DNA from: Oscillospiraceae bacterium
Lineage (GTDB): Bacteria; Bacillota; Clostridia; Oscillospirales; Oscillospiraceae
Assembly (NCBI GenBank): GCA_902761635.1
Contig: CACWLG010000028.1
Span: forward strand, 1 to 56,029
Reading direction: 5' to 3'
Length of the DNA stretch: 56,029 bases
Below the pieces are notes generated by a model. It saw only the letters and a list, made by a program, of their open reading frames with translations, was not told where the DNA came from and did no database searches. Made by a program: the position numbers and the translations under genes. Positions 35,145 through 56,029 of this stretch are shown here, piece after piece; position 1 is the stretch's first letter, and every line of letters starts with the position of its first letter.

Positions 35145-35162
35145 GAGAATATGCACATACCG

Positions 35163-35193
35163 AAAAAGGAAGCCGTTCGCGGCTTCCTTTTTT
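35163..35193. terminator. Bidirectional terminator
   Basis: AAAAAGGAAGCCG (35163-35175), TTCG tetraloop, CGGCTTCC plus T-run (35180-35193). It separates the convergent flavoprotein gene and topB. Confidence 0.9.
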
Positions 35194-35195
35194 CG

Positions 35196-37373: not shown

Positions 37374-37630
37374 GATCGTTTCTCGTTTCTTCAGGATGGG
37401 TGAGCATGGCGCCGTCGAGCAATGCGCACGACGCTGCGATGCTTCGGTACAGAGCCGCAAAGCGGCTCTGCGGAACGCCTTGCGGCGCTGCGTCCTTATT
37501 ATAAATGCTGCTCCCCGGAAAGTCAATTTTCCCGACAGCCTGTTGCCGCCTGGAAACCGACTGTCTTTTGCGGGGCTTTCTGAACGCGCTGAAATCGAAA
37601 TACTTTTGCCTGCCGCAGAAAAAGGATCTG
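37374..37630. other. Intergenic region upstream of topB
   Basis: It contains the hairpin CAGAGCCGC-AAA-GCGGCTCTG (37450-37470) and a second small stem CGCC/GGCG (37477-37488), both on the topB leader side. I see no gene here. Confidence 0.5.
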
Positions 37631-37769: not shown

Positions 37770-37798
37770 CCGGATATGCCGCATGGCTCAATATCCGG
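37770..37798. promoter_or_regulatory. Perfect inverted repeat in the xdh leader
   Basis: CCGGATAT (37770-37777) and ATATCCGG (37791-37798) with a 13-bp spacer. No T-run follows, so it is not a terminator. It could be a protein-binding operator or an RNA stem controlling the downstream hydroxylase gene. Confidence 0.5.
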
Positions 37799-37842
37799 AT
37801 TCAAGCCTGCAGCCATCAAATACTGCGGAAAGGGAATACACA

Positions 37843-40596: not shown

Positions 40597-42294
40597 TCAT
40601 TTTGCAGCGCTCCCCTTCTTGTACAAAAGCCAGGGGTAATGATCCCGCACGGCGGCGATCACTTCCCCGATCTCCGGGGCAAGATCGCTGTCCTCCGGCA
40701 ATACCCGGCGCAGCTCGCCGTCCCAGCGGAGCAGGAAGCGCCCGTCCGGCAGCGGGGCAAACCCGGAATTGCAGCTCTCGGAGAGCGCCTTCTCCGTGCA
40801 GAACACAGTCAGCTTTTCCAGATACGGCGCGCTTTTCTCCGCGCAGAAGCTGGCACAGTTGCCGCACTCGTTGCACAGGCCGTCGATATGGAGCATCTGC
40901 TTTCTGCCGTTTACCTGGATAACCACGTTTGCCCGGTTGGGGCATACGGAGGCGCAGCCGCCGCATACGACTCGGCAGTTCGCGCGCGCTTTCGGCGCCT
41001 TCGGACGCGGGTCTCGGCGGGGTTCATGCTCTGCCCGCGCCTTTATGCCGAGGGTTCGGGACAGCTCGTCCAGCGCAGCGCTGTCAGGCCTTGTTCCGGT
41101 GCTCTGCAGGCCCTCCAGAGCCTCTGCCATGGCGTTCAGCTTCCCGTAGCCGCCCGGCTTCAGAAGCTCCGTGCAGACGGTGATGGGAAAGAGACCGGCC
41201 CGGCGCAGCGCTGCGATGTTCTTTGCATCCGCGCCGCCGCAGTAGGAGATGGGGAGTTCCCCGTCAAAGTCCCGGCTGAGTCTGGCCGCCGTCTGCAGGC
41301 TGAGAGGCAGCAGCGCGCGGCCGCTCATGTACATGTTCTCATCGGGCAGCTCATCATGCCTGGCCTTCACGGCAAAGGTGTTCGTCAGCTTGACGCCGAA
41401 GTACAGGCCCAGCTCCTTCGCCCGGGTCTGGATGCGCCGCAGCATGGGAACGGCGTCGGCGTACCGGAGATCGTGCTCGAAGGACTCCCGCCCAAACTGA
41501 ATGTAATCAAAGCCCAGGTCATCCAGCGCCCTGCGGGCATACGCATACCCCACCAGCGTGGGATTGCATTTGAGCAGCAGATTCAGCTTTTTATTCTCCA
41601 GCAGGTGCAGGGCGATCTTTTCGATTTCGACCGAGGGGCAGCCGTGCATGGTGGAGACGGTCACGCTGCTGCAGATTGCCGGGGAGACGGCGTCCAGATC
41701 GGCCCTGCCGAAGCGCCGGAAGCTGCCGAGGCGCTGCTCCAGAACCGCCCTGCAGTGCTGATATTCCGCCGTTTGCGCGGCGTCCTTCAGGTTCTCCAGG
41801 AAGTCGTCGATCTTCTTGCTCCGGATACCCGCAAGATCATAGCCCACGCTCATATTGAACACGAATCCGTCCGCCCGGCCGAGCTCCAGCTCTCTCGACA
41901 GCACGTGGATCAGGAACCAGGCCTTGATGTACTCCTTCTGCGCCTGCGGGACTGTCAGCTCCGTGGACCACTCGCAGTTGTAGCCCTCATCCTCAGCCAG
42001 GATACAGGGCTTGGACACTGTCAGATCCTCCCCGTCGATGATCTGCACGGTTTTCAGCTCGATCATTCTGGCGCCGCTGAGATAGGCGGCAGCAATGTTC
42101 TGGGCAAGCTGCGTATGGGGACCCGCAGCGGGACCGACAGCGCTTTCCAGCGTGCGGCCCATATAGGGCTGCGCTGCGTCCGCGGGCGCATGGTAGAGAT
42201 TGGAGCATCCGAAGATGCTGTTTTCCGTCTTCCATTCCCCGAGGGCCCAGTCCAAAAGCGCCTCAAAGGGGATGGGATGCATTCTGTCGCTCAT
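40597..42294 (-). CDS. ygfK: YgfK-like protein lacking the FAD/NAD(P) domain
   Basis: A 565-residue protein. The N-terminal two thirds (about 1-390) match the dihydroorotate-dehydrogenase-like part of YgfK (ENSIFGCSNLYHA, STMHGCPSVEIEKIA, LLLKCNPTLVGY, CTELLKPGGYGKL). The C-terminus has ferredoxin-type Cys motifs CGGCASVCPNRAN and CNECGNCASFC. Full-length YgfK is about 1000 residues and carries a glutamate-synthase-like FAD/NAD(P) oxidoreductase between these parts; here the linker is only about 40 residues. It could pass electrons between the hydroxylase and ferredoxin without NAD(P)H. Relatives occur in purine and urate degradation clusters. Last gene of the minus-strand block. Confidence 0.87.
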   Translation of the reverse strand: MSDRMHPIPFEALLDWALGEWKTENSIFGCSNLYHAPADAAQPYMGRTLESAVGPAAGPHTQLAQNIAAAYLSGARMIELKTVQIIDGEDLTVSKPCILAEDEGYNCEWSTELTVPQAQKEYIKAWFLIHVLSRELELGRADGFVFNMSVGYDLAGIRSKKIDDFLENLKDAAQTAEYQHCRAVLEQRLGSFRRFGRADLDAVSPAICSSVTVSTMHGCPSVEIEKIALHLLENKKLNLLLKCNPTLVGYAYARRALDDLGFDYIQFGRESFEHDLRYADAVPMLRRIQTRAKELGLYFGVKLTNTFAVKARHDELPDENMYMSGRALLPLSLQTAARLSRDFDGELPISYCGGADAKNIAALRRAGLFPITVCTELLKPGGYGKLNAMAEALEGLQSTGTRPDSAALDELSRTLGIKARAEHEPRRDPRPKAPKARANCRVVCGGCASVCPNRANVVIQVNGRKQMLHIDGLCNECGNCASFCAEKSAPYLEKLTVFCTEKALSESCNSGFAPLPDGRFLLRWDGELRRVLPEDSDLAPEIGEVIAAVRDHYPWLLYKKGSAAK

Positions 42295-42334
42295 GTCAGA
42301 TCCTTTCCGCCCCGGTTCGGAGCTGTTTGTTTTC

Positions 42335-43675
42335 TCAATACGCTCTGTGGTTCAGTTCGCCCCAGAGCTTTTTGCTCTGCTCCAGCGTCCAGGCCAGGAG
42401 GCGCTCCTCGTCGATATCCACGAACGCCCGGTCCTTATAGAGGACCCGGCCGTTGATGACGGTGGTGCGGCAGCTTCTGCCCATCATGCCGAAGAGGATA
42501 TGGCCGTCCGCGTTCTCCTCCGAGAACGGCGTGAAAACGGGATAGTCCATGACCGCTACATCCGCCGCGGCGCCGGGCTTTAAGACGCCCAGCGGCTTTT
42601 TGAATATTTTAGCGGCGATGCGGGCGTTGTTTTCAAACAGCATGGTCTTGGCTTCGTTCCAGCCCACATTGGGCTGGGCAGCCTGGTGCCGCTGTATGAT
42701 GAGCAAAACCTTCAGGCTCTCCAGCATGTCGTGCGTATAGGCATCGGTCCCGAGGCCCACGGTGATCCCCTTCTGCATCATCTGCAGCACCGGGGCACAG
42801 CCTACGGCATTGCCCATATTGGATTCGGGATTGTTGACCACCATCGTCCCGGTCTCCCGGATGATGTCCATCTCGGCGGGGCTGATATGGATGCAGTGAC
42901 CAAGCAGCGTCTTCTCCCCAAGGATGCCGTTGTAGAGCAGCCGGTTCACCGGCCTGCAGCCGTAATGGCGCAGGCTGTCATAGACATCGTTCATGCCCTC
43001 TGCGACATGGATGTGAAAGCCCGTCATGCCGTCGTTGGCCTTGACCATCTTCTCAAACGTCCTGTCCGAGATCGTAAAGAGGGCATGCCCGCCGAACATG
43101 GCTTGGATCATGTCATCGTCCTCGTCCCTGCACCAGCGTGCAAATTCCGCGTTCTCCCGGATGCTCTCGTCGCACTTGGCCTCTCCGTCCCTCTCCGAGA
43201 CCTCATAGCACAGGCAGGCGCGCATGCCGAGCTCCCGGGCGACATCCCTGATCGTAAAGAGAGAGCCGGAGATCTCAAAGAAAGAGGCATGGTGATCAAA
43301 GATCGTGGTGACGCCGTTGCGGATGCATTCCAGGATCGTGGCATAGGCGCTGGCCCTGGTCCCGTCCAGACTCAGGCGGCGGTCGATATTCCACCAGGTG
43401 CCCTCCAGGATCTCCAGGAAGTTGTGCGGATCATTCCCCTTGATGGCAAGACCGCGGGCAAGCCCGGAATAGATGTGCGTATGGGCGTTGATAAGTCCCG
43501 GCATGATGACGCCGCCGCAGGCGTCAAGCCATTCGGCGTCCGGGTACTGTTCGCGGAGCTCCAGGCATGCGCCCACGGCGAGGATCTGATCCCCGTCGAT
43601 CAGCACTGCGCCGTCCGGGAGATAGGGCCTGCCGGGGTCGCGGGTCAATACTCTTCCGTTTCCGATCAGCAGCAT
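42335..43675 (-). CDS. ssnA: SsnA-type amidohydrolase (chlorohydrolase/guanine deaminase-like)
   Basis: A 446-residue metal-dependent hydrolase. Metal ligands are seen as NAHTH (about 67-71), GHCIHIS and GTDAY; FHIHVAEG supplies the third His. It resembles E. coli SsnA, a conserved companion of selenium-dependent hydroxylases in purine catabolism, and probably deaminates or opens a purine-derived ring. The exact substrate is unproven. The start at 43675 has GGAGG 7 nt upstream. In the 117-bp gap before it lie a GC-rich stem and a TTGCAC/TATCAT pair with a 17-bp spacer that could be a secondary promoter. Confidence 0.9.
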   Translation of the reverse strand: MLLIGNGRVLTRDPGRPYLPDGAVLIDGDQILAVGACLELREQYPDAEWLDACGGVIMPGLINAHTHIYSGLARGLAIKGNDPHNFLEILEGTWWNIDRRLSLDGTRASAYATILECIRNGVTTIFDHHASFFEISGSLFTIRDVARELGMRACLCYEVSERDGEAKCDESIRENAEFARWCRDEDDDMIQAMFGGHALFTISDRTFEKMVKANDGMTGFHIHVAEGMNDVYDSLRHYGCRPVNRLLYNGILGEKTLLGHCIHISPAEMDIIRETGTMVVNNPESNMGNAVGCAPVLQMMQKGITVGLGTDAYTHDMLESLKVLLIIQRHQAAQPNVGWNEAKTMLFENNARIAAKIFKKPLGVLKPGAAADVAVMDYPVFTPFSEENADGHILFGMMGRSCRTTVINGRVLYKDRAFVDIDEERLLAWTLEQSKKLWGELNHRAY

Positions 43676-43792
43676 GGATTCTGCCTCCAGTCTTTTTGCG
43701 GTTTTCGCGTCTTCTGTTTCCCAGTGATTACGTATAATGATATCCCCTCGGGACCGGCTGTGCAAGCCCCCGGGGGGATTTTTGAAGAAAAA

Positions 43793-45088
43793 CTATCGTT
43801 CTTCCGCGCGCATCCCCGTCAGATACTTTGCGCAGAAGGGTTTGATTTTTCCGCCGTCGTACACGTGCAGACTGCAGCGGCGCAGGCGTTCGACATTGAG
43901 GTTCATGGCATCCTGAAACGCCATGGCCGAGAGGGTCAGGCTCTCATGCCGCAGGCGGTAGAGAAAGGTATCAAAGTCCATTTCGTCCGAAAAGCGCCCC
44001 GCCGGCGCCGCTTCCTCCGGCGAGCGCCGCCAGTGCCGGGCCACATACTCCCGGTTGTCCTTTGCCGATCCCCGGCTGCGGGAGGAATGCGTGATGGAGG
44101 AGAGCGGCTTCAGCCCGCCGTCCGGATCGATCAGAAAGCTTGCATGGAATCCGCACAGCGGATGGTCGCAGCGGGAGGGCATGAAGCTTTCAACGGGGAT
44201 CTGCGCCTGATCGGCGAGATCCGTCATGAGCATGTCAAGGGTATAACGCTCCTTCCCCTCCGGCTCTGTGGGATAGCGGCCGAAGTAGGACACCGGCTGG
44301 AAGTGTATCCCGCGAACACCGGGGGCAAGCCGGGCGGCAAGCTTCACGATCTCGCCAAGGTTTTCATCGTTTATCCCCCTGACCACCGTCGGCACCAGTG
44401 TCACGCCGATCTGAAGCTCCGAGCAGACGCGGATCGCCTCGAGCTTGGTTTCCAGCAGTTCCCGGCCGCGCAGAGCGCGGTAAATGTCATCCCGCGTACC
44501 GTCAAACTGGAGGAACACGATATCCAGCCCCGCCTCGGCAAGGCGTTTTGCGTAAGCCCTGTCCTCTGCCAGGCGGATGCCGTTGGTGTTCACCTGGGTA
44601 TAGCTGCACCCGGCTTCTCCGGCAAACTGCACGAGCTCGGGCAGATCGTCGCGCAGGGTCGGCTCGCCCCCGGAAAACTGCAAAAGCGGCTTTCCGCACT
44701 GCCGGACGATTTCGCGTATAGCGGCCCTGCACGCCTCGGCCGGCAGATCCTCTCCCTTACCCCCGTCGGCGAAGCAATAGCGGCAGCAGAGATTGCAGCG
44801 GTGTGTGACCTCCAGAAGCGCGCAGCATGTGCCGCTCTCATGCTCCGGACATATGCCGCAGCTTTCGGGGCAGCCGAGGCCGCAGCCGGAGGGCAGCGCC
44901 GAAGTTCCGAGGAGCCACTTGTCAAAGTCCATCCGCCCCTGCCAGACGGGAACCGCAAAAAAGCCGTGGGCCGGGCAGGTCTTTTCCAGCCGGATCTGAC
45001 CGCCCTCCCCGCGGGTGAGGACAGCTGGCAGATTATGCAGGCACACCGGACAGACGGAACGTGTCCGGCGGATGATCTGCGCCCCCAT
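43793..45088 (-). CDS. TrsS-like radical SAM protein
   Basis: A 431-residue radical SAM enzyme. The SAM-binding cluster motif is C98-x3-C102-x2-C105 (CNLCCRYC), followed by FSGGEPTLRDDLP. The N-terminal region has extra Cys pairs: CPVC (13-16), TCPAHG (37-42) and the dense group C69, C73, C77, C80, C88, C89, likely a metal site. IHFQPVSYFGR and FLIDPDGGLKPLSS are further landmarks. It resembles the family annotated as radical SAM (seleno)protein TrsS, seen near molybdenum hydroxylase genes; no TGA codon is present, so this copy uses Cys. It overlaps the GTPase gene by one base. The reaction is unknown. Its operon makes a role in cofactor or hydroxylase maturation plausible. Confidence 0.85.
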   Translation of the reverse strand: MGAQIIRRTRSVCPVCLHNLPAVLTRGEGGQIRLEKTCPAHGFFAVPVWQGRMDFDKWLLGTSALPSGCGLGCPESCGICPEHESGTCCALLEVTHRCNLCCRYCFADGGKGEDLPAEACRAAIREIVRQCGKPLLQFSGGEPTLRDDLPELVQFAGEAGCSYTQVNTNGIRLAEDRAYAKRLAEAGLDIVFLQFDGTRDDIYRALRGRELLETKLEAIRVCSELQIGVTLVPTVVRGINDENLGEIVKLAARLAPGVRGIHFQPVSYFGRYPTEPEGKERYTLDMLMTDLADQAQIPVESFMPSRCDHPLCGFHASFLIDPDGGLKPLSSITHSSRSRGSAKDNREYVARHWRRSPEEAAPAGRFSDEMDFDTFLYRLRHESLTLSAMAFQDAMNLNVERLRRCSLHVYDGGKIKPFCAKYLTGMRAEER

Positions 45089-46149
45089 CAGCCGCCCATG
45101 GCGAGGCCTTCCTTTTGGAAGACCGTGAGTTCCAGCTGGTACTTGTCCGACACGCTGTTCATCGCGCCCGTAACGATCGCCTCCAGCGTGTCCGCCGGGC
45201 AGACGGCGCTTGCGTTGAGCAGGACGGCGATGTCCGTACAGGGTCTTTCAAAGCGGCGCGTGACCTCAACGTCCCGCTCTGTGCCGATGAGGTCCACCCT
45301 GCCAAAGTCTCCCTCAGGCTCCCAGGCAAGGAGCTTGAGATGGGGAATGCGCTGCCCGGCGGCCTTGATCCCATCCCGCACCGCTGAGGCCATGTCCATC
45401 AGGTAGGCATTGCCGTCAAAATCGCTGCAGCAGACCAGCGCGCGGTACTGGACGTAAAGCTCGCTGAGCCCGGCCATGGCATGCCGGAAGGCATCGCCCC
45501 CGTAGCCGATGTCCGGGCGGCGCATGGAGGCTGTGCCCTCAGTCAGCGCCCGGGACAATTTTTCCAGCCCCTCCCCTTTCCGCGCGCTGATGGCAAGGAC
45601 CATGGCCTCCGGGTAGTGTTCCCTGAGCCAGGTGAGATCGGCCTCGCGCCGCGTATCGTCCAGCAGGTCGCACTTATTGAGCACGATCAGGTCAGCCTCC
45701 ATAAGCTGGGCGTTGTACAGGTATTCCAGATCGCCGCCCTCACCGCGCCGCAGGAGCTCGACCGTGCGGGGCTCTATCAGTACCGTGAAGGGTGCAAGCT
45801 CGAACTGGCCTGGGTATTTCTCCTTGAGGCCATGGTACACATGCTCCAGCGCTCCGACGCCGAAGCCGGGGATATCCGACATCACCAGCTCAAAGCCGTC
45901 GTCATAAAGGCTGTCAAGGCGCCCGGCAAGCTGCTCGTTCACATAGCAGATGCAGTTGTCCGTGATCTGGGACGCGCTGCAGCCGCTGAGCCTGGCAAAG
46001 CGGTCGTCTGCAAGGCTCACGCCGTGGCCGAGGTCGTTGGAGATCATGGCGGCTTTGCCGCATCGGGCGCTGTGATACCGGGTCAGGGCCATCATGGTCG
46101 TTGTCTTGCCGGAGCCGAGAAAGCCGCTGATCACCGCAAATTTTTTCAT
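45088..46149 (-). CDS. G3E-family (CobW/HypB/UreG-like) GTPase
   Basis: A 353-residue P-loop GTPase. Walker A is GFLGSGKTTT (9-18), G3 is DIPGFG and G4 NKCDLL. The metal-binding CxCC motif of COG0523 chaperones is replaced by C66-I-C68-Y (in DNCICYV). The C-terminal domain (about 225-350) is diverged from CobW_C. Such proteins insert metals or cofactors into enzymes (HypB for nickel, UreG, MeaB). It is coupled to the radical SAM gene by a one-base overlap and follows modC, so an insertion or gating role for the molybdenum enzyme is a reasonable inference. Confidence 0.85.
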   Translation of the reverse strand: MKKFAVISGFLGSGKTTTMMALTRYHSARCGKAAMISNDLGHGVSLADDRFARLSGCSASQITDNCICYVNEQLAGRLDSLYDDGFELVMSDIPGFGVGALEHVYHGLKEKYPGQFELAPFTVLIEPRTVELLRRGEGGDLEYLYNAQLMEADLIVLNKCDLLDDTRREADLTWLREHYPEAMVLAISARKGEGLEKLSRALTEGTASMRRPDIGYGGDAFRHAMAGLSELYVQYRALVCCSDFDGNAYLMDMASAVRDGIKAAGQRIPHLKLLAWEPEGDFGRVDLIGTERDVEVTRRFERPCTDIAVLLNASAVCPADTLEAIVTGAMNSVSDKYQLELTVFQKEGLAMGG

Positions 46150-46203
46150 GTGTGTCCCTCCTTGCTGAAGGCGCAGGTCTCCCTCAAGAGCGGGAAGCCT
46201 CTC

Positions 46204-47247
46204 TCATTCATACAGCAGCAGGATATTGGCTCCCGCGATCCCGAGCTCCTGCGGGAAGCTTGCGGGCCGTTTTTCCTTGGGCAGCCGCCACCAGACGGGC
46301 GTGCTGTCCTTTTTCTGCTTCTGGTAGCGAAATTGCAGGATGAGCTCAAAGGGCTCCTCCATCTCCTCGACAAAGCATACCGGGAAGCGGTTCTGCGGCG
46401 CGGCGGGGCTGAAATAGTGCGCCCGGAGGCCGACAGCACAGAGGCCTTCCCTAACCTCCTGCCTCGTCTCCATCCGCACCCCCCAGTCTGGGATCTCCAC
46501 TGTATGGGCGTCCACGCGCCGGGCAGGGACTACGTTCTTGCAGCCCGTCAGGATCGCCGCGCGGACGCTGCCGGGGTCGGCGAAGAGCGCCTTGGTGGGC
46601 TTGACGGTCAGGAGTCTTCCCTCGTCCATGACCGCGATGGCGGCGCTCATGTTATACGCCTCGGTGCGGTCATGGGTCACCATCAGCACCTCGCGCCCGA
46701 AACGGGCGAGAAGGTCGCGAAGCTCGATCTTCAGCGCGTCGCGCAGGTGGCCGTCAAGGGCTGAGAAGGGCTCATCCAGCAGAAGCAGCTGCGGGTCGCT
46801 GACCAGGATGCGGGCCAGGGCGGCGCGCTGCTGCTGCCCGCCGGAGAGCTGGTGCGGTCTGTGGTTTTCCAGTCCCTCCAAACGCATGAGGGCAATCATC
46901 TCAGAGGCCCGCCGCTCCTTCGCCGCGCGATCCTTTTCCCGGCAGAGACCGCAGAGGATGTTCTGCCGCACGGTCATATTCGGGAACAGGGCATAATTCT
47001 GAAACAGATAGCCCACGCGCCGCTGCTGCGGCTTAAGGTCAATATGCGCCTGCGAATCAAACAGCACGCGCCCGTCAAGCTCGATGCGGCCGCGATCCGG
47101 TCTCTCGATCCCGGCGATGCATTTCAAGGTCATGCTCTTTCCGCAGCCGGAGGCGCCCAGCAGGCTCGTCACACCGTTTTCCGCCGTCAGGCGCACGTTC
47201 AGTTGAAATGCTCCGAGCTGCTTTTGAATATCCACATAAAGGCTCAT
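46204..47247 (-). CDS. modC: Molybdate ABC transporter ATPase
   Basis: A 347-residue ATPase. Walker A GASGCGKSMT, Q-loop FQNYALFPNMTV, signature LSGGQQQR, Walker B LLLDEPFSALD and MVTHDRTEAYNM are intact. The C-terminal region (about 240-345) is regulatory-like but not an obvious pair of Mop repeats. It overlaps modB by 4 bp. Confidence 0.92.
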   Translation of the reverse strand: MSLYVDIQKQLGAFQLNVRLTAENGVTSLLGASGCGKSMTLKCIAGIERPDRGRIELDGRVLFDSQAHIDLKPQQRRVGYLFQNYALFPNMTVRQNILCGLCREKDRAAKERRASEMIALMRLEGLENHRPHQLSGGQQQRAALARILVSDPQLLLLDEPFSALDGHLRDALKIELRDLLARFGREVLMVTHDRTEAYNMSAAIAVMDEGRLLTVKPTKALFADPGSVRAAILTGCKNVVPARRVDAHTVEIPDWGVRMETRQEVREGLCAVGLRAHYFSPAAPQNRFPVCFVEEMEEPFELILQFRYQKQKKDSTPVWWRLPKEKRPASFPQELGIAGANILLLYE

Positions 47248-47915
47248 TTCGCCACCGCCTCTTTCTGCCGCGTCTCCAGCATGTTCACGGTCAGCAGCAC
47301 CACCGTGGAGATGGCGAGGTTTACCATGACCCAGAAGAAGGCGCCGCGCTCGTCATTGGTTCGCCAGAGCTGGTAGACCGTGGTGGAGATGGTGGCGGTG
47401 CGCCCGGGTGTATAGCCGATAAGCATGCTGGTGGCACCGTACTCCCCCAGCGCCCGCGCAAAAGCCAGCACCGTGCCCGCCAGGATCCCCTGACGGCAGG
47501 CAGGCAGGCGGATGCGCCAGAAAATATAGGCGTCGGAAAGACCCAGAGTCTGCCCGGACCAGGCAAGATTTTCGTCAAAGCTTTCAAACGCGCCTCGCAC
47601 CGTGCGGTACATGAGCGGAAAGGACACCACCGCCGCAGCGAGGATCCCGCCGTACCAGGTCATGACGAACTTGATGCCGTACCGCAGCAGAAACGCGCCG
47701 ACGGGGCGCTTCACACCGAAAACAAGCAGCAGAAAGTAACCGCACACCGTGGGCGGCAGCACCATCGGCAGCGTAAGGATCACGTCCAGGATGCCCTTCA
47801 CCGCGCGCGGAAGCCTCGCCGCGTAATAAGCAGCGCAGATGCCCGTAAAGAATACCAGCACCGAACTCACGGCGGCGATGCGCAGGGAATTGAATAAGGG
47901 ATACCAGTCGATCAT
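47244..47915 (-). CDS. modB: Molybdate ABC transporter permease
   Basis: A 223-residue membrane protein with about five helices. The ModB signature is visible: TLPMVLPPTVCGYFLLLVFG and LARALGEYGAT-type string FARALGEYGATSML (the EAA loop contacting ModC). The start at 47915 has GGAG upstream, overlapping the nifS end region; a longer upstream frame is rejected. Confidence 0.94.
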   Translation of the reverse strand: MIDWYPLFNSLRIAAVSSVLVFFTGICAAYYAARLPRAVKGILDVILTLPMVLPPTVCGYFLLLVFGVKRPVGAFLLRYGIKFVMTWYGGILAAAVVSFPLMYRTVRGAFESFDENLAWSGQTLGLSDAYIFWRIRLPACRQGILAGTVLAFARALGEYGATSMLIGYTPGRTATISTTVYQLWRTNDERGAFFWVMVNLAISTVVLLTVNMLETRQKEAVAK

Positions 47916-47928
47916 ATGTTTTCTCCGT

Positions 47929-49119
47929 TCAGCACAGGTGCTCCCGCCTGCCCTCGGCATACTCCTTCCAGAGCGGGGACAGGCTGCGCAGGCTCTCCAC
48001 CGTGCGGGGTACGGTTTCAAGGATGCAGTCGATCTCTTCATCGCTGTTGTATTCACCTATGGATAAGCGCAGGGAGCCGCGTGCGAGCTCATAGGGGATG
48101 CCGAGGCTCAAAAGCACATGGCTCGGGTCCAGAGAACCGGAGGCGCAGGCGCTGCCGGAGGAGGCGCAGATCCCCTCTCTGTCCAGCGCGAGCAGCAGAT
48201 TCTCCCCTTCGATGCCCTCAAAGCAGAGGTTCACCGTGCCGGGGACTCGGCGCTCCGGGCTGCCGTTCACGCGGCTGTGCGGGATCTTGCTCAGGCCCGT
48301 GATCAGGCGGTCTCGCATGGCGGTGACGCGCGCCATGTTTTCGTCCAGCTTAGCGCAGGCTTCCTGCAGCGCCGCGGCGAGCGCCAGGATGCCCGCCACG
48401 TTCTCCGTCCCGGCGCGCTTGCCGCGCTCCTGGGCCCCGCCCTCGAGAAAGGGCAGGAGCGGGATGCCCCTGCGCACATACAGCGCCCCAACGCCCTTGG
48501 GCGCGTGGAACTTGTGCCCCGAGAGAGAGAGCAGATCAATGTTCATTTTCGCAACATCGACAGGGATGTGCCCCACGGCCTGCACCGCGTCGGTGTGGAA
48601 AGGGATCCCCCGCTCCCGGCAGAGCGCGCCGATCTCCGCGACGGGCTGGATGGTGCCGACCTCATTGTTGGCAAGCATGACGGTGACAAGGCAGGTGTCA
48701 TCCCGGATGGCGGCGGCGGCTTCCTCCGGGCGCACGACGCCGTCGTCACGCACGTCCAGAAGCGTCACCTCGAAGCCGTCCTTCTCCAGCTTTTTGAGCG
48801 TGTGGAGGACGGCATGGTGCTCAAAGCGGGTGGAGAGGATGTGTTTCTTTCCCTTCCGCGCGCCGAGGCGGGCACAGGAGGTGATGGCCTGGTTGTCGCT
48901 CTCCGTGCCGCAGGAGGTGAAACAGATCTCCCCTGCCGAGGCGGCTCCCAGGCAGGAGGCCACCGTCCGGCGGGCTTTCTCTACCGCCTCGCGCGCCTCC
49001 TGCCCGAAGCCGTACAGGCTCGAGGGGTTGCCGTATTTTTCCGTAAGCCACGGGAGCATGGCCTCAAGGGCGAAGCTGCTGACGGCAGTGGTCGCCGCAT
49101 TGTCCGCGTATACAAACAT
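47929..49119 (-). CDS. nifS: Cysteine desulfurase / selenocysteine lyase, NifS class
   Basis: A 396-residue PLP enzyme. The PLP lysine is in SLSGHKFHAPKG and the catalytic Cys in SSGSACASGS on the extended loop. NADNAATT-type start is seen as YADNAATTAVS. It releases S or Se from cysteine or selenocysteine. Its position between modA and modB, and the known requirement of selenium-type hydroxylases and of sulfido-Mo enzymes for a NifS-like donor, suggest it supplies the terminal Mo ligand. A Cys is the very last residue (HLC). The start codon is preceded by AGGAGGAC. Confidence 0.93.
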   Translation of the reverse strand: MFVYADNAATTAVSSFALEAMLPWLTEKYGNPSSLYGFGQEAREAVEKARRTVASCLGAASAGEICFTSCGTESDNQAITSCARLGARKGKKHILSTRFEHHAVLHTLKKLEKDGFEVTLLDVRDDGVVRPEEAAAAIRDDTCLVTVMLANNEVGTIQPVAEIGALCRERGIPFHTDAVQAVGHIPVDVAKMNIDLLSLSGHKFHAPKGVGALYVRRGIPLLPFLEGGAQERGKRAGTENVAGILALAAALQEACAKLDENMARVTAMRDRLITGLSKIPHSRVNGSPERRVPGTVNLCFEGIEGENLLLALDREGICASSGSACASGSLDPSHVLLSLGIPYELARGSLRLSIGEYNSDEEIDCILETVPRTVESLRSLSPLWKEYAEGRREHLC

Positions 49120-49163
49120 TGTCTTGTCCTCCTGAAATCAGTAGCTTCGCCCGGCGGATGCGC

Positions 49164-49994
49164 TTATGCCGCTCTGGAGAAGCCGACGCCCTCAAACACC
49201 TTCATGGCCTCGTCGCCGCACAGGTAGTCGAGGAAGGCGCGGGCGGCTTCGGGATGGGCGCTGTTTTTCATGACGGCGGCGGGGTAGATGACCTGGCCGC
49301 ACATCTCCTTGTCGGCAGTGTCCACGACCTCAAGGCCGGCGGAAAAGGCGTCGGTCCCGTAGACCACGCCGCAGTCGACGCTTGCCTCCTTGACCTGGGT
49401 GGTGACCTCCTTGACGTTGGATCCGTAGGTAATGAGGCCCGCTTTGGCAAGCTCCTCTTCCTTGAGCCCATAGAAGGCCAGGATCTTCTGGGTGTACTGG
49501 CCGACAGGCACATCGCTGTTGCCCATGGCAAAGAGTACATCGCCGGATTTGAGCAGCTCCACAAGCCGGTCAAAACTCGTGATACCCCTGGGGTTGCCAT
49601 CGGGGACGACAAGCGCGACCTTGTTCTCCAGCAGATCGACGCGGCTGCCCTGAAGGACAAAGTCCAGGCCGTCGGGATTGGCGTCCTTATCCCTGGAGGC
49701 GTCGAGCTGGTTCATCTGCCTGGGGGCGGCAGAGATGAACAGATCACAGTCCGCGCCCTCCTGGATCTGGGTCTTGAGCGTGCCGGAGGAGTCGAAGTTG
49801 CAGAGGATGGTGACGCCGGGGTTTGCGGCCTCGTACTTGTCCTTGAGCTCGGTGAGCGTCTCGGTCATGGAGGCGGCGGCAAAGACGATGAGCTCCGTCT
49901 TCTCGGGAGCTGCCGCAAGCGCGGCGGGGGATGCTGCGAGCGCGAGGACAAGCGCCATCGCCAGCAGCAGCGCCAGGGTTTTTCTCGCTTTCAT
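49164..49994 (-). CDS. modA: Molybdate-binding protein
   Basis: A 276-residue exported protein. The signal peptide (1-28) ends AALAAA without lipobox. The ModA fold is recognised by LIVFAAASMTETLTELKDKYE, NFDSSGTLKTQIQEGADCDLFISA and ASVDCGVVYGTDA. It captures molybdate or tungstate for ModBC. It is the first gene of the modA-nifS-modB-modC-GTPase-radical SAM stretch; the MITE copy lies 43 bp upstream. Confidence 0.95.
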   Translation of the reverse strand: MKARKTLALLLAMALVLALAASPAALAAAPEKTELIVFAAASMTETLTELKDKYEAANPGVTILCNFDSSGTLKTQIQEGADCDLFISAAPRQMNQLDASRDKDANPDGLDFVLQGSRVDLLENKVALVVPDGNPRGITSFDRLVELLKSGDVLFAMGNSDVPVGQYTQKILAFYGLKEEELAKAGLITYGSNVKEVTTQVKEASVDCGVVYGTDAFSAGLEVVDTADKEMCGQVIYPAAVMKNSAHPEAARAFLDYLCGDEAMKVFEGVGFSRAA

Positions 49995-50031
49995 GTGCGT
50001 TTCCTCCTTTTCCCGTTTTTCAGGGAAAATA

Positions 50032-50059
50032 ATTATGGCAATACCGCATAATTCGGCAA
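50032..50059 (-). promoter_or_regulatory. Possible hybrid promoter made by the MITE upstream of modA
   Basis: On the minus strand TTGCCG (50054-50059), within the element, is followed by a 16-bp spacer and CATAAT (50032-50037), which spans the element end and the target duplication. The modA SD (GGAGG) lies about 25 bp downstream. No better promoter is seen between the element and modA. Confidence 0.4.
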
Positions 50060-50163
50060 GAGCAGATCCTGAGAAAATTTGGGTTCTGATAAAGGCACTT
50101 TTTCGCAGATGTACTTAAGTGAGCGTCCAAATCTTTGCCGAAGGCGGATTGTGCGGTGTTGCC
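50037..50163 (+). repeat. MITE-like element, copy 5 (127 bp)
   Basis: Both termini are present and the element is flanked by a perfect 4-bp duplication TTAT (50033-50036, 50164-50167). The interior differs from copy 2 between GATGTACTT and the right terminus (AAGTGAGCGTCC), showing internal rearrangement. It separates the moeA-like gene from modA. Confidence 0.87.
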
Positions 50164-50207
50164 TTATATAAACGTGGATTTACACGTCTATACCGAAGGA
50201 AAGTATT

Positions 50208-50228
50208 GCCTCCCTCAAAGAGGGAGCC
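50208..50228 (-). terminator. Weak terminator after the moeA-like gene
   Basis: On the minus strand GGCTCCCTC and GAGGGAGGC pair with one mismatch around a short loop, followed by AATACTTTCC. With the MITE behind it, the moeA-like transcript may end here. Confidence 0.45.
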
Positions 50229-50236
50229 AAAGAGGC

Positions 50237-51265
50237 TTACATGCCCTTCCCGAATCCGCAGTTGGGGAAATGACAAACCTTGCAGTTGAGGCAAAGACCG
50301 CCGTGGCCGAGGCCCGCGAGCATGTCGCGTGTGATGGGGGTGTCGGTCACCAGATACGGCAGCAGCAGATCAAAGATCGTGCGCTTTGCGTACATCACGC
50401 AGCCGGGCAGGCCGCAGACCGGGCGCCCGTCCGGCATGTAGGAGACAAGGAACATCGCCCCCGGCAGCACGGGAGCGCCATAGGAGACGATTCGCGCCCC
50501 GGTGTTTTTGATCGCCAGCGGGGTTTTGTCATCGGGGTCGACGCTCATGCCGCCGCTGCACAGGACCATCTCGCAGCCATGCTCCAGCATGCTCCGCACA
50601 GCGGCGGTGATCTTTTCATGATCGTCGTTCAAAACCACATGCTCCACCATTTCACTGCCGCCGAACTCGCGCAGCTTCTCGACGATGACAGGGGTGAAGC
50701 TGTCCTGAATGCGGCCGTAATATACCTCGTTGCCGGTGGTGACGACCCCGACCCTTTTGGACTTGAGCGGTACCAGGCGCAAAAGCGGTTCCTGGCCTGC
50801 GGCCTCCCTTGCCTTCTCCATGCGCGCCTTCTCGATCACCAGCGGGATGACACGCGTGCCGCAGAGCTTTTCGCCCTTTTTCACCACAAAGCCCGAGGCG
50901 CGCGCTGCGATCATCATGTCGCCCAGGGCATTGACGGCGCGAAGGCGCTCCACGTCGATGAGCAGCAGCCCGTCAATATCGGCGATGAGCTCGATCTTGC
51001 CCTCCCGGGGCTCGGTGGCGTGCATGTTCCCGCCCATGCACAGATCGCGCAGGATCATCGCCGCCTCGTCCTCGTGCAGCATGGTCTCGTCGTTTTCCCA
51101 GATATAGATGTGATCCTTGCCGACGCTTAAAAGCACCGGCACATCCTCCGGCCGTATGATATGGCCCTTGCGGAAGACCGGGCCCTTTTTCTCGTCCCGG
51201 ATGATCTGTGTGATGTCATGGCACAGCACATGGCCTATGGCATCTTCGGTTTTCATAAGCTTCAT
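50237..51265 (-). CDS. MoeA-like molybdopterin-binding protein with C-terminal Cys motif
   Basis: A 342-residue protein. The N-terminal part (about 1-165) resembles MoeA substrate domains (GKDHIYIW, KGHIIRPEDV). The MoCF/MogA-type domain (about 170-310) has GVVTTGNEVYYGR, LCSGGMSVDPDDKTP and LPGCVMY, the molybdopterin-binding loops. The C-terminus carries CLNCKVCHFPNCGFGKG, a four-Cys motif not in E. coli MoeA. It probably catalyses or assists molybdenum insertion for the hydroxylases. It resembles the molybdopterin-binding proteins that accompany selenium-type hydroxylase genes. The start at 51265 has AGGAGG upstream; a longer upstream frame is rejected. Confidence 0.88.
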   Translation of the reverse strand: MKLMKTEDAIGHVLCHDITQIIRDEKKGPVFRKGHIIRPEDVPVLLSVGKDHIYIWENDETMLHEDEAAMILRDLCMGGNMHATEPREGKIELIADIDGLLLIDVERLRAVNALGDMMIAARASGFVVKKGEKLCGTRVIPLVIEKARMEKAREAAGQEPLLRLVPLKSKRVGVVTTGNEVYYGRIQDSFTPVIVEKLREFGGSEMVEHVVLNDDHEKITAAVRSMLEHGCEMVLCSGGMSVDPDDKTPLAIKNTGARIVSYGAPVLPGAMFLVSYMPDGRPVCGLPGCVMYAKRTIFDLLLPYLVTDTPITRDMLAGLGHGGLCLNCKVCHFPNCGFGKGM

Positions 51266-51279
51266 CAGTCGGCCTCCTG

Positions 51280-52323
51280 TCAAAGAATCGTTTCGCCGCA
51301 AAGGCGTCTGATTTCGTTTCGGATACGCATGGCCGTCTGCCGCCGTCTTTCGTGAGCGGCAAGGGCTTCGGGCGTTTTGCACTTCAAAAGGCTCCGGTCA
51401 AAGCGCTCGGAGATCGACACACGCTTGCTCCCCTGCACGGCCTTGTCGGCGAGGAAGACGAGGGCGGCCTCCGTGATCTCAGAGGAATCCGGGTCGTGGT
51501 GCTGACGGACGATTTCCGCAAGCTCCGGATATCCCAGCTCCCTGAGCCATGCAGCGCCGACGGCGGCGTGCTCCTTCTCCGTCCGCGCAAGATCGTGCAG
51601 CAGCGCCGCGCGGTGAACAAGGTCCGCATCCAAAGCGATCCCCCTCCCCCGGAGCGCCGTGCAAAGCTCGTCGGCCAGCGCCGCCGCAGCTTTACAGTGG
51701 GCGATCAGGTCCGCATCCGCCCCGGCTGCTTCGAGCAGGGCAAAACAGACCGCGTCGTCCAAGTCCGGTTTACATAATGTTCCTATCTCTTTGACCGCCA
51801 AATTCTCCCCATCCGCTTCCAGCACGGAGACAGAGGTATAGCCCAGTTTGTTCCGCTGCCCTGTGATGGAGGCGATGGCGGATTTATGACTGACAACGGC
51901 AATGTCACCGCTGCTCTGCCGCAGGCAGCGCAGCAGCGCGGCCTGCATCCTGTCCCGCACGGCCCCGTCCGCCTCCGCGCCCTCGGGAAGCAGGCTCGAA
52001 TCCTCCTCCCGTGCGGCATAGAGCGCCGGGAAGCGCCGCATGATCTCGGTAAACCTGAGGCCGTCCCACACGCCCATGCGCTGCTCCTCAAGGCCCTCGA
52101 CCGCAACAGGGTCGGGACACAGCGGCAGGGCCGTTTCGCGCGCGCGGATGAGCGTGCTGCAAAAGACCGTATCAAGTCCCTGCAGCCGGGGTACAAAGGG
52201 CAGCAGCGCCGCCTGGAGCCGACCTGCTTTTCCCAGCGGAATGTCCGTTTGCCCGCCGATGCACCAGCGCTCCCCGATCGGGATATCCGGCATGGCATGG
52301 CGGATCAGATAGATTTTTCTCAT
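51280..52323 (-). CDS. Histidine phosphatase - HD domain fusion protein
   Basis: A 347-residue fusion. The N-terminal histidine phosphatase (about 1-195) has YLIRHAMPD and FCSTLIRARETA, and VVSHKSAIASI with the late His. The C-terminal HD-type domain (about 205-345) has a metal-site pattern (LIAHCKAAAALADEL...LLHDLARTEKEH...VRQHHDPD). The gene overlaps the MobA-ModE gene by 4 bp, so the proteins work together. A dual phosphohydrolase acting on a nucleotide or pterin intermediate of the molybdenum cofactor is a possible role, but this is inference. A similar gene lies near the DVU_155x molybdenum hydroxylase cluster in Desulfovibrio as I recall it. Confidence 0.85.
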   Translation of the reverse strand: MRKIYLIRHAMPDIPIGERWCIGGQTDIPLGKAGRLQAALLPFVPRLQGLDTVFCSTLIRARETALPLCPDPVAVEGLEEQRMGVWDGLRFTEIMRRFPALYAAREEDSSLLPEGAEADGAVRDRMQAALLRCLRQSSGDIAVVSHKSAIASITGQRNKLGYTSVSVLEADGENLAVKEIGTLCKPDLDDAVCFALLEAAGADADLIAHCKAAAALADELCTALRGRGIALDADLVHRAALLHDLARTEKEHAAVGAAWLRELGYPELAEIVRQHHDPDSSEITEAALVFLADKAVQGSKRVSISERFDRSLLKCKTPEALAAHERRRQTAMRIRNEIRRLCGETIL

Positions 52324-53246
52324 TTCAGCTCCTCCCCGAAGTATTCCTCAAAGAGCGCTGCCGCCTCCTGCCGCAGATGGGCGGTATAGCGCAGGTAGCA
52401 GTCCAGCAGGCGTCTCCCCTTTTCATTCAGCCTGCTCTCACCGCCGTTGGCCCCGCCCTGGCTGCGCTCGAGAAGAGGAAAATGAAGCTGAGATTCCAGG
52501 GCCCGGATGATGTTCCATCCGCTGGAGTAAGAGATCTGCATGCGCTGGCAGGCAAGTCGCACTGAGCCTGTCTCATCCACCAGCTCCAGGAGCATGGCGG
52601 TCCGCTCGTCAAAGAAGGGCTTCTCCCGCGCAAGAGATACCGAGAGCTCCGGGCGGACGAGGTGTGCGTTGTGGTAGCGCAGGAGCGCAGCGTAATCCGC
52701 GGGGGTGTCCGCATCGTGAAGGACACCGGGGTCAGATACCTCCACGCGCGTCACATTCGTCCCGCAGCGGCTGATCGCCCCCTGCAGTCCTCCATCGCCG
52801 GGATCGGCAAGCAGCGCGTCGATCAGCCCCGCAGACAGCAGCAGCGGATGCCCGGTCTTCCCCTCGCAGACGGGGCAGGCCAGGGCCGCGTCCGTCTCCA
52901 TGAGCCGCGTCACCGTGAGCGCGGTAAAAAGCGGGATATCCACCGGAGTGAAGAAAATGCGGCCGCACTTGTCCCGCAGGTACCGCAGGCCGATCTTTGC
53001 CGAGTCGAACATCTGGGTCTCGGCATAGCGCTCGTTTCTCAGGAACACGAGACCGAGATTGCCCAGATGCCGTTCAAGCTGCTGCGCGTTGTAGCCCGTG
53101 ACCACGGCGATCTTCGTCACACCCGCCTGGTGAAAGGTGGCGACAATGCGCTGGGCAATGGAGATGGAGCCGATATTGAGCATGGGCTTAAACTCCCCCA
53201 TGCGCGAGGACATGCCCGCCGCCACAATGACCGCGCCGAACTGCAC
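52320..53246 (-). CDS. MobA/MocA-like nucleotidyltransferase fused to a ModE-type DNA-binding domain
   Basis: A 308-residue fusion. The N-terminal domain (about 1-195) has the NTP-transferase signature VIVAAGMSSRMGEFKPML and FTPVDIPLF, the type that attaches CMP or GMP to molybdopterin. The C-terminal domain (about 215-305) is a ModE N-terminal winged helix (SVRLACQRMQISYSSGWN, then a wing with RSQGGANGG). So cofactor synthesis and transcriptional control are in one chain. GTG at 53246 is preferred (GGAAGG 8 nt upstream, family start); GTG at 53255 is possible. No E. coli-type molybdate box is apparent in the 200-bp region upstream. Confidence 0.88.
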   Translation of the reverse strand: MQFGAVIVAAGMSSRMGEFKPMLNIGSISIAQRIVATFHQAGVTKIAVVTGYNAQQLERHLGNLGLVFLRNERYAETQMFDSAKIGLRYLRDKCGRIFFTPVDIPLFTALTVTRLMETDAALACPVCEGKTGHPLLLSAGLIDALLADPGDGGLQGAISRCGTNVTRVEVSDPGVLHDADTPADYAALLRYHNAHLVRPELSVSLAREKPFFDERTAMLLELVDETGSVRLACQRMQISYSSGWNIIRALESQLHFPLLERSQGGANGGESRLNEKGRRLLDCYLRYTAHLRQEAAALFEEYFGEELK

Positions 53247-53452
53247 AGGTATCACCTTCCGATCCTTGCGAATTGTATTTTTTTAATCTTCGATTGTTTT
53301 AAGTATACATGCGCTGTAGGAAAAAGGCAAGACTAATATCTTTACATTTTTGTTTTTCCGTTCTAAACTGTACGCAGCGCCTCATCCCGAGCGGCAGCGA
53401 CACAAACGCGCCTGCGGCCGGAAACGGCCCAGGCGGATCGGAGGCATCACAC

Positions 53453-54427
53453 ATGAAGCTATACGTCTGGGGCACCGGCTGCGGCGCGGGCGACCTTGCC
53501 GATCACGGGCTGGAGATATCGCAGGTCTGCGCCTTTCTCGATTCCGCGCCCCTGTCGGACCGCTTTCTCGGCTGTCCGGTGCTGCGCCCGGAGGAAGTCG
53601 AAAATGAGGAGATCGACCTGATTCTGGTCGCAAGCCGCCATGCCGATGCCATTGCGCAGAAAGCGGAAGAGCTGGGGATCGACAGGGAAAAGCTGGTTTT
53701 TTTGAAAAACAACTGGGCGCTCACCGATCGGAACCGGGATTATACGGCGGCTGAGAGTGTTCTCGACCCCCGGTACCTGGACGGTGTGCGCGCGCCGCAT
53801 CACGCCGTGCGGGACCCGCTGTGGACGGAGGCTTCCCCTCTCGCGCCGCGTGATCTGGAAAACGACTATGTCCGCGTGCGTTCCCTGGAGGTCCTGTGCC
53901 GGGGGCTTGACGAGGTGCCCGGCGCGGCGGCAGAGCTGGGCGTCTACTGCGGCGGCTTTGCAGGGTGCATCAATGCCCTGCTGCCGGAGCGGACGCTCTA
54001 CCTCTTTGACACCTTTGCGGGCTTTGATGAGGCGGAAGCAGGCGGCGACAATGCCGGCTTTGTTCAGGCGCATCGGAACACCGGGGCTGATCGGGTCCTG
54101 CGATGCATGCCGCATCCGGAAAAGATCATCGTAAGGCAGGGGCTGTTCCCGGCAAGCCTCGGCAGGCTCGAGGAGCGCTTTGCACTGGTATCGCTGGATG
54201 TGGATCTGGAGGAGAGCACGCTTGCCGGGCTGCGCTGGTTTTACCCGCGCCTCAATCCCGGCGGGTATATCCTGCTGCACGACTTTCATTCCCCGCGCCT
54301 GCCCGGCGTAAAGCGGGCCTTGCGGCGCTATGAAGCAGAGCTGGGAGTACGCCTGCCCGCCGTGCCCCTGTGTGATATAAACGGCACGCTGGTCCTGTGC
54401 AGGAATCTGGAATTAAATACAAAATAA
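53453..54427 (+). CDS. TylF/macrocin O-methyltransferase-like protein with N-terminal Rossmann-like domain
   Basis: A 324-residue soluble protein. The N-terminal domain (about 1-85, YVWGTGCGAGDLAD ... FLDSAPLSDRFLG) resembles nucleotide-sugar or nucleoside-diphosphate binding modules often found in clostridial glycan genes. The C-terminal domain (about 130-320) matches macrocin-O-methyltransferase (AELGVYCGGFAGCINALLPERTLYLFDTFAGFDE, SLDVDLEESTLAGLRWFYPRLNPGGYILLHDF). It is SAM-dependent; the substrate is unknown. The gene is plus strand, alone, between the minus-strand molybdenum block and the aldehyde oxidoreductase, with its own SD (GGAGG). Confidence 0.85.
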   Translation: MKLYVWGTGCGAGDLADHGLEISQVCAFLDSAPLSDRFLGCPVLRPEEVENEEIDLILVASRHADAIAQKAEELGIDREKLVFLKNNWALTDRNRDYTAAESVLDPRYLDGVRAPHHAVRDPLWTEASPLAPRDLENDYVRVRSLEVLCRGLDEVPGAAAELGVYCGGFAGCINALLPERTLYLFDTFAGFDEAEAGGDNAGFVQAHRNTGADRVLRCMPHPEKIIVRQGLFPASLGRLEERFALVSLDVDLEESTLAGLRWFYPRLNPGGYILLHDFHSPRLPGVKRALRRYEAELGVRLPAVPLCDINGTLVLCRNLELNTK

Positions 54428-54536: not shown

Positions 54537-54571
54537 GTATTTGAAAGATTTTGAGTATCGGAGGCATCGTC

Positions 54572-54835
54572 ATGGATGAGGCGCTGTTTGAGCTGACCGC
54601 CAGCGAGGTGACGGTGGAGATCAGGGATCCCGTCACCGGGAAGGTTTACCGGCGGGAGCTGCCCATCGACTACTACGAAAACGCAAACTTTCTGCGCCTC
54701 GGCGGCGAGGATATGGACGGCAGCCCCGCGCAGCTTGTCTTCTACACCCAGCGCGGCATCGAGCGGGCGAAGGACATCACCGGCAAGGGTCCCGATCACG
54801 ATCGCTGCGGCGGGCACGGTCATTCAGGAGCATAA
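54572..54835 (+). CDS. Small protein with His/Cys-rich tail, upstream of aldehyde oxidoreductase
   Basis: An 87-residue protein of unknown family. The first 65 residues form an alpha/beta-like segment (FELTASEVTVEIRDPVTGKVYRREL ... GSPAQLVFYTQRG). The tail GKGPDHDRCGGHGHS has four His and one Cys, a likely metal site. GGAGG lies 7 nt before the ATG at 54572. It is 50 bp upstream of the aldehyde oxidoreductase start and probably translated from the same mRNA. It could be a metallochaperone or redox partner for that enzyme; this is inference. Confidence 0.75.
   Translation: MDEALFELTASEVTVEIRDPVTGKVYRRELPIDYYENANFLRLGGEDMDGSPAQLVFYTQRGIERAKDITGKGPDHDRCGGHGHSGA

Positions 54836-54885: not shown

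Positions 54886-56029
<1,144 letters not shown>

Follow-up and report, generated by a model that had tools for sequence, protein, structure and literature searches.

Which enzyme is served by a tightly packed set of molybdenum genes, and what is the task of a GTPase and a radical SAM enzyme encoded within it? This question is raised by contig C28 of an Oscillospiraceae bacterium, which in its entirety forms the window analysed here (56,029 bases) and belongs to a 3.59-Mb draft genome of 176 contigs (85.8% complete, 4.7% estimated contamination). Eleven adjacent open reading frames (ORFs), all on the minus strand between positions 40597 and 53255, encode MobA-ModE, phosphatase-HD, MoeA-like, ModA, NifS, ModB, ModC, GTPase, TrsS, SsnA and YgfK proteins. 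An initial annotation, made from the letters of the window, had read them as a maturation block of a molybdenum/selenium hydroxylase; the eleven tightly packed minus-strand genes were borne out and their names are mostly right, and the hydroxylase gene adjoining the block, an aldehyde oxidoreductase (AOR) gene at the window edge, had been overlooked. In this gut-type bacterium the set probably supplies molybdenum and finishing enzymes to this aldehyde-oxidising enzyme, and the GTPase forms with the radical SAM enzyme a pair that recurs in other bacteria.

The block and the divergent AOR operon

The AOR gene runs divergently from the block and leaves the window for contig C63, its N-terminal 381 residues being encoded at 54886..56029 on the plus strand. 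This part scores 629.7 bits with NF045668 (profile positions 1-378) and is 97% identical to the AOR of locus L152, and the fragment on C63 scores 858.8 bits (positions 367-905). The cut-off of 1100 bits is reached by neither part of this gene, which is split by the contig end; the 97% identical AOR of L152 scores 1498.7 bits. Since the last 41 bases of the window are exactly the first 41 bases of C63, and since synteny with L152 agrees, C28 and C63 are taken as neighbours. After the AOR, C63 shows matches to NF045663 (773.9 bits, cut-off 530), NF045667 (134.7, cut-off 155 not reached), NF045669 (148.1, cut-off 103) and NF045666 (321.9, cut-off 300). The catalytic half, which starts at 54886, comprises AOR, the dicluster flavoprotein, a DVU_1556-type methyltransferase, a C-GCAxxG-C-C protein and a CoA ligase. 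In RUG13650 (L070, L152) a block of MobA-ModE, phosphatase-HD, MoeA-like, ModA, NifS, ModB, ModC, an opposite-strand XdhC, GTPase and TrsS is likewise divergent to AOR, dicluster protein, methyltransferase, C-GCAxxG-C-C protein and CoA ligase. By the AOR gene at 54886 and this synteny, the block as first noted is half of a two-operon system, and its part from MobA-ModE to TrsS is the half that diverges from the AOR genes.

The closest known system is that of TrsS and the DVU_1551-1556 set with AOR (NF045646, NF045663-NF045669). In common with it, the locus has modules for NTP transferase, HD and phosphatase as well as TrsS, AOR, the dicluster flavoprotein, the C-GCAxxG-C-C protein, the CoA ligase and, below cut-off, the DVU_1556-type methyltransferase. 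It differs in that NTP transferase and HD domain are split here and re-fused to ModE and phosphatase, that XdhC lies outside the block (one XdhC is on contig C13, and a third hydroxylase gene on C14) and that the GTPase is extra. Among 16 TrsS-like loci fetched from 12 genomes of the class, ten (L047-L052, L054, L056-L058) carry most of the set, i.e. AOR, dicluster protein, methyltransferase, C-GCAxxG-C-C protein, CoA ligase, XdhC and DVU_1551-like modules; in the stretches examined L057 is without AOR and L049 without CoA ligase, and in those of L053, L055 and L059-L062 the set was not seen. L053 and L055 each show two TrsS-like genes in tandem ahead of a CoA ligase gene, and AOR is missing from the stretch examined there. 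A literature search turned up no published function of the DVU_1551-1556 set.

The split concerns the first two genes of the block. A MobA-like nucleotidyltransferase fused to a ModE-type helix-turn-helix domain (52320..53255, minus strand) resembles in its N-terminal part the NTP-transferase half of DVU_1551 (NF045665, 194.8 bits, profile 2-202) and matches PF12804, PF00126, TIGR03310 (109.9, cut-off 186.45) and the ModE family TIGR00637 (62.3, cut-off 98.5). It is followed by a histidine phosphatase fused to an HD domain (51280..52323, minus strand), whose HD part resembles the C-terminal half of DVU_1551 (NF045665, 133.8 bits, profile 201-358; PF00300, 99.8; PF01966, 39.6). DVU_1551 is not found here as one protein above 315 bits, the two scores falling on two genes and on adjoining halves of the profile, and in L047, L048 and L052, for example, DVU_1551 (NTP transferase-HD) is accompanied by a separate phosphatase-like gene. 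MobA-ModE and phosphatase-HD are thus known modules of the set in a new fusion, and the phosphatase-HD protein, formerly listed as unexplained, is a rearranged known module. As start of MobA-ModE either 53255, the outermost, or 53246, the one first given and another GTG, at which the ORF of the L152 relative begins, may be right.

Between the divergent operons lies a TylF-like methyltransferase gene (53309..54427, plus strand; PF05711, 53.3 bits), whose counterparts at this position in L152, L070 and L069 are 78-79% identical to it. Upstream of AOR there is also a 94-aa ORF (54551-54832, plus strand) without NCBIfam match, which is conserved in L152/L070 (87% over 91 residues).

The GTPase and its radical SAM neighbours

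The GTPase gene (45088..46149, minus strand; P-loop GFLGSGKT, G3 SDIPG, CICY, G4 NKCD) codes for a member of an unnamed G3E-fold family and overlaps the radical SAM gene (43793..45088, minus strand) by one base, as initially annotated. The radical SAM enzyme had been left without an assigned step; an NCBIfam name exists, namely TrsS (NF045646), and the protein barely belongs there with 494 bits (493.7 in the genome search) over a cut-off of 490. It is a homologue of tetraether lipid synthase (Tes).

From a scan of genome contigs 80 of 119 relatives of the GTPase were kept. The 80 loci represent 79 genomes, 50 of which entered the co-occurrence tests as a close group of 38 (L069-L107 minus L097, which is the same assembly as L084; GTPase at least 42% identical) and a distant group of 12. 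Background samples were 245 genomes of the class and 245 of the order, with the own genome (G000) counted in both. At genome level TrsS was accepted at E values up to 1e-50, the curated cut-off of 490 bits being counted separately, and the GTPase at E up to 1e-15. Fisher tests compare the close group with the class minus G000, and their p values serve as description because the relatives are kin and not independent.

TrsS is the adjacent gene on the same strand in 30 of the 80 loci (26 downstream; four upstream, in L120, L126, L127 and L141), with varying flanks, and is present without being adjacent in four. An ArsM-ArsS fusion, i.e. a second radical SAM enzyme, adjoins the GTPase in 23 loci (21 on the same strand downstream, two convergent) and lies further off in L146. 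At genome level TrsS occurs in 46/50 GTPase genomes (32 over the cut-off) versus 13/245 of the class (9 over the cut-off). The close group contributes 36/38 versus 12/244 for the class minus G000 (p 1e-32), and the distant group 10/12, five of which lie below the cut-off at 295-353 bits. The GTPase is thus paired with radical SAM enzymes, and the two form a linked pair as had been supposed. The TrsS-bearing loci belong to Oscillospiraceae/Ruminococcaceae and Lachnospiraceae metagenome-assembled genomes (MAGs), Clostridium ragsdalei, Clostridiaceae, Peptococcaceae and Mogibacterium. The Synergistaceae locus L132 has an AOR cluster around its GTPase gene, and TrsS was not found in the stretch available there.

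Methyltransferase, radical SAM and DUF3641 domains were found in the five ArsM-ArsS proteins scanned against Pfam, and the one scanned against NCBIfam scores 317.7 bits with TIGR04167 (cut-off 300). The ArsM-ArsS loci (L109, L115, L121, L124, L144 and 18 others) are mostly from Eggerthellaceae and other Coriobacteria. A shorter ORF matching the fusion is held by 15 of the 80 loci as well. Clostridium ragsdalei (L111, L178, L179) has two TrsS on different contigs. One is in an AOR cluster without GTPase, the other forms a pair with the GTPase and has an ABC transporter nearby. In L117 an ORF at 9506-9919 between CoA ligase and GTPase weakly resembles the dinitrogenase iron-molybdenum cofactor domain, with 25.5 bits for a cut-off of 26.3.

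With respect to its family, the GTPase shows both homology to the G3E nucleotide-binding domain and its fold, the best fold matches among those listed being UreG and HypB. It shares with UreG, HypB, MeaB and the COG0523 proteins (CobW, YjiA, Nha3) the G-domain fold, the P-loop, NKxD and a motif with cysteines in the CxCC position, but differs from these G3E GTPases in SDIPG, in CxC(Y/F/H) and in its radical SAM neighbour. The D-to-E change in G3, described as the eponymous G3E trait (PMC9164220), is absent from the family: G3 is D92 in 44/44 aligned sequences, and SDIPG is present in 77/80 loci (not located in 3). Also absent is CxCC, the COG0523 motif (PMC2770081, PMC9164220); at its place CIC is followed by Y, F or H in 44/44 aligned sequences and 77/80 loci (not located in 3). 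Control GTPases have ExxG (L001, L003, L008-L011, L149) and CxCC (L001, L008-L011, L149; not located in L003). The GTPase is the new part here, a G3E-fold family with D for E in G3 and CxC(Y/F/H) for CxCC. GTPase matches occur in 6/245 class and 2/245 order genomes (own genome in both); four of those in the class and one in the order sample show 24-28% identity and canonical CxCC and ExxG. The sole true relative in these samples is that of G041 (36% identity), and the nearest relatives among named genomes come from Clostridia- and Ruminococcaceae-labelled MAGs (82-84% identical). A literature search, its hits examined in part, turned up no study of a G3E/COG0523-type GTPase that forms a pair with a radical SAM protein.

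Several observations weigh against a GTPase dedicated to radical SAM enzymes. Neither radical SAM enzyme is found in 22/80 GTPase loci, in nine of which the sequence ends within 300 bases after the GTPase gene (in four within 3). Most of the close relatives are MAGs of rumen Clostridia, and the counts are not independent events; in the distant group five TrsS scores stay below the cut-off. TrsS was not found at E up to 1e-50 in the close genomes G499 and G513 and the distant genomes G519 and G520, and in G041 the GTPase gene is on another contig than TrsS and is followed by an ArsR-type regulator gene. Among the 13 TrsS-bearing class genomes, 11 are without and 2 with the GTPase, so it cannot be a general requirement of TrsS; a genome with the GTPase usually has TrsS as well, but not vice versa. 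As CICY was contained in one of the two scan patterns for GTPase relatives, the frequency of CIC is partly given by construction. Finally, a rubredoxin-type site shared by TrsS and ArsM-ArsS was considered as common target of a cargo, and no conserved TrsS-like site was seen among the cysteines of the 23 fusions of at least 600 aa; a common metal cargo is therefore not evident.

TrsS chemistry and the task of the GTPase

The TrsS family profile finds Tes (PDB 7tol) at E 1.6e-105 and MoaA far more weakly (1e-16). Homology to Tes (GDGT-MAS, MJ0619, 7TOL) extends over nearly the whole length and includes the ligands of all four metal sites with the labile Met439. Aligned to 7tol, these are C13, C16, C38 and H41 (rubredoxin-type Fe), C73, C77, C80 and H83 (N-terminal cluster), C98, C102 and C105 (radical SAM cluster) and C312, C405, C419 and M389 (C-terminal cluster), at positions that 49 to 51 of the 51 sequences have in common. 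The rubredoxin and N-terminal ligands, CX3CX2C and Met439 follow PMC9433317; the cysteines of the C-terminal cluster are our reading of the alignment. TrsS differs from Tes by its bacterial AOR setting, by a score below the Tes cut-off (NF045702, 283.3 of 450 bits) and by the position of Tyr459, aligned by eye to V409, which is V in 46, A in 2, I in 2 and E in 1 of 51 TrsS. This tyrosine is conserved in 1,000 archaeal homologues (PMC9433317); since Tyr459 variants of Tes stayed active (PMC9433317), valine at this position leaves a like chemistry possible. In Tes a substrate carbon bonds to a cluster sulfur ahead of C-C coupling (PMC9433317). By homology TrsS probably uses its C-terminal [4Fe-4S] cluster to form a C-C or C-S bond by radical chemistry. 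The idea that the radical SAM protein modifies a pterin has lost a precedent, since the structure authors report that they were unable to corroborate the pterin-methylase assignment of MJ0619/Tes (PMC9433317).

No in-frame stop interrupts the window TrsS, hence there is no sign of selenocysteine. No published study of its function turned up in the literature search (hits examined in part), in which TrsS was seen solely as one entry in a table of selenoproteins (PMC13188914). Residue C89 is found in 36/36 TrsS whose genome or locus has the GTPase (G041 among them) and in 5/12 whose genome is without it, a comparison that left out three C89-less sequences from GTPase genomes (L178 and two of L180); as marker of GTPase-linked TrsS it was rejected, since it is weak and tracks phylogeny.

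Taken jointly, these data lead us to a reading whose chances we regard as evenly balanced: the genes between 43793 and 53255 would be the supply and finishing half of an NF045668-type AOR system, and the GTPase an accessory protein devoted to the radical SAM enzyme. From what is known of the families, ModABC would import molybdate, the MoeA-like protein would insert Mo, MobA-ModE would make the dinucleotide cofactor, and NifS together with the XdhC coded elsewhere in the genome would supply the terminal sulfur. TrsS with its four Tes-type metal sites would, by homology, form a C-C or C-S bond by radical chemistry. The GTPase may serve this enzyme and not the hydroxylase, as a GTP-gated chaperone similar to UreG/HypB which binds metal by its CxC pair and hands it over to TrsS (to ArsS in Coriobacteria) or activates the enzyme conformationally.

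The GTPase co-occurs with a hydroxylase, too. A molybdenum hydroxylase is present in 34/38 close GTPase genomes versus 43/245 of the class (p 2e-18), with matches of 112-216 bits in all 34 genomes, and in 5/12 distant ones. This enrichment, the UreG/HypB/MeaB fold and the presence of the GTPase inside AOR clusters in L076, L107, L117, L119, L132 and L141 would suit a GTPase that gates cofactor insertion into AOR itself in the manner of UreG, HypB or MeaB, its link to TrsS arising through shared AOR maturation. Nevertheless near-complete AOR clusters exist without GTPase (E up to 1e-15) in G111, G179, G157, G090 and G056, 7/12 distant GTPase genomes are without any hydroxylase match, and XdhC, a known insertion factor, was found in 12/14 genomes searched (own genome included). 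Since such clusters do without the GTPase, as do 11/13 TrsS-bearing genomes, and since the GTPase adjoins ArsM-ArsS in 23/80 loci, the gating proposed in the initial annotation is weakened and we consider it unlikely.

GTPases paired with radical SAM maturases are familiar from HydEFG, where HydF carries between HydE/HydG and [FeFe] hydrogenase. By the same principle TrsS could make a small ligand or cofactor piece that the GTPase as scaffold carries to AOR. Pair and metalloenzyme do occur in the same genomes, and the nearby genes for a methyltransferase, a CoA ligase and a C-GCAxxG-C-C protein point to a pathway of small molecules, but UreG and HypB are the best fold matches in a comparison outside which HydF stood, and again AOR systems without GTPase exist, which leaves such a hand-over distinctly improbable.

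The ArsM-ArsS neighbours suggest still another task, the handling of metalloids: the GTPase would bind arsenic or another thiophilic element by its CxC dithiol and feed ArsM/ArsS-type chemistry, the methyltransferase and TrsS of AOR loci being a diverged copy of that pair. The fusion adjacent in 23/80 loci, with 317.7 bits for TIGR04167 in the one scanned, and the ArsR-type regulator after the G041 GTPase agree with this. The DVU_1556-type methyltransferases argue against it: at fusion positions 53, 80, 175 and 225, which we take to be the arsenic-binding positions of ArsM, they keep cysteine 175 in 14/14 and 225 in 7/14, but have cysteines 53 and 80 in 0/14. Arsenic methylation by the AOR-linked methyltransferase is therefore unlikely, and metalloid handling as a whole seems very improbable to us.

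Returning to the GTPase as radical SAM accessory, its occurrence beside both TrsS and ArsS permits a wider reading, which we put forward as tentative and rather doubtful. The whole GTPase family might consist of GTP-gated chaperones of radical SAM enzymes (TrsS, ArsS), and TrsS homologues might build, by C-C or C-S coupling, a modified cofactor or ligand for molybdenum AORs.

Remaining genes, purine neighbours and selenium

The further genes of the block belong mostly to well-defined families. On the minus strand follow a MoeA-like protein with MoCF_biosynth domain (50237..51265; PF00994, 83.9 bits; TIGR00177, 67.1, cut-off 85.35), matched in 5/16 TrsS loci examined (L048, L049, L051, L052, L057), the molybdate-binding ModA (49164..49994; TIGR01256, 119.8 bits, cut-off 62.5), a NifS-type cysteine desulfurase (47929..49119; TIGR03402, 552 bits, cut-off 530.75), the molybdate permease ModB (47244..47915, with the ATG chosen at 47915; TIGR02141, 199.3 bits, cut-off 182.6) and, between ModB and GTPase, a ModC-like ABC ATPase (46204..47247; TIGR02142, 202.2 bits, cut-off 285.05; PF00005). 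The distances to the upstream gene are -4 bp for phosphatase-HD, +14 for MoeA-like, +242 for ModA, +44 for NifS, +10 for ModB, -4 for ModC, +54 for the GTPase, -1 for TrsS, +117 for SsnA and +40 for YgfK. The "several" overlaps of 1-4 bp mentioned earlier are exactly three, namely those of phosphatase-HD, ModC and TrsS. No RNA family of Rfam reaches its gathering score in the window.

Behind TrsS, after a gap of 117 bp, come the amidohydrolase SsnA (42335..43675, minus strand; NF005540, 636.7 bits, cut-off 444; TIGR03314, 569, cut-off 455.5) and YgfK (40597..42294, minus strand). The latter name stands with respect to the family (TIGR03315, 668.6 bits, cut-off 835.3) and has to be qualified with respect to length, the protein being shortened to 565 aa versus a model of 1012 positions (best stretch 1-411). 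Convergent to them is an XdhD-type hydroxylase gene (37783..40407, plus strand; TIGR03311, 1213.9 bits, cut-off 830.45). Upstream of it are found an ORF of 750 aa (35151-37403, plus strand) without NCBIfam or Pfam match at E 0.001, situated between XdhD and a TAT-signal FAD/FMN-binding protein (33126-35144), and NuoF-like and [FeFe] hydrogenase genes (29106-32684, plus strand; TIGR02512 over cut-off). The hydrogenase comes nearest to the model of the NADH-dependent A6 type, whose cut-off it does not reach.

With SsnA, a YgfK-like protein and XdhD next to the block, this neighbourhood resembles the loci for selenium-dependent molybdenum hydroxylases (SDMH) in E. coli, E. faecalis and C. difficile (PMC2276186, PMC2432076, PMC11448449), and the adjoining XdhD, SsnA and partial YgfK would suit a selenium-dependent maturation of XdhD by the block. 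It differs in that the block goes with AOR and that SelD and YqeB were not found. Their absence from the window had already been noted, and it holds for the rest of this 85.8% complete genome; in G035, of the same family, the SelD and YqeB genes are neighbours. SelD occurs in 6/38 close and 6/12 distant GTPase genomes and 54/245 of the class, without enrichment in the close group (p 0.5). The selenium role formerly given to the block found no support in the SelD and YqeB searches and was rejected. XdhD, too, is rejected as an unlikely client, since the divergent neighbour of the block is AOR and since AOR was the best query, not XdhD, in 18/18 hydroxylase loci of relatives (18 of the 34 genomes, matches of 171-216 bits; XdhD itself was not searched for there). 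Selenium-dependent maturation of XdhD by the block is accordingly the most improbable of the explanations weighed here, with very little chance in our opinion. In the 26 loci where TrsS follows the GTPase, no ORF reaches 40 bits with SsnA or YgfK of the window, as far as the stretches extend. SsnA and YgfK are judged not to be part of the AOR system, and together with XdhD they look like separate neighbours of the AOR block.

A tempting assignment to selenium-dependent purine catabolism is thereby corrected. In the structure paper the role of bacterial Tes homologues is left open (PMC9433317). The locus ties one bacterial branch of them to a molybdenum AOR and to a GTPase with which this branch is paired in several bacterial families, and so gives the radical SAM enzyme a concrete, testable partner and possibly a step of loading or activation.

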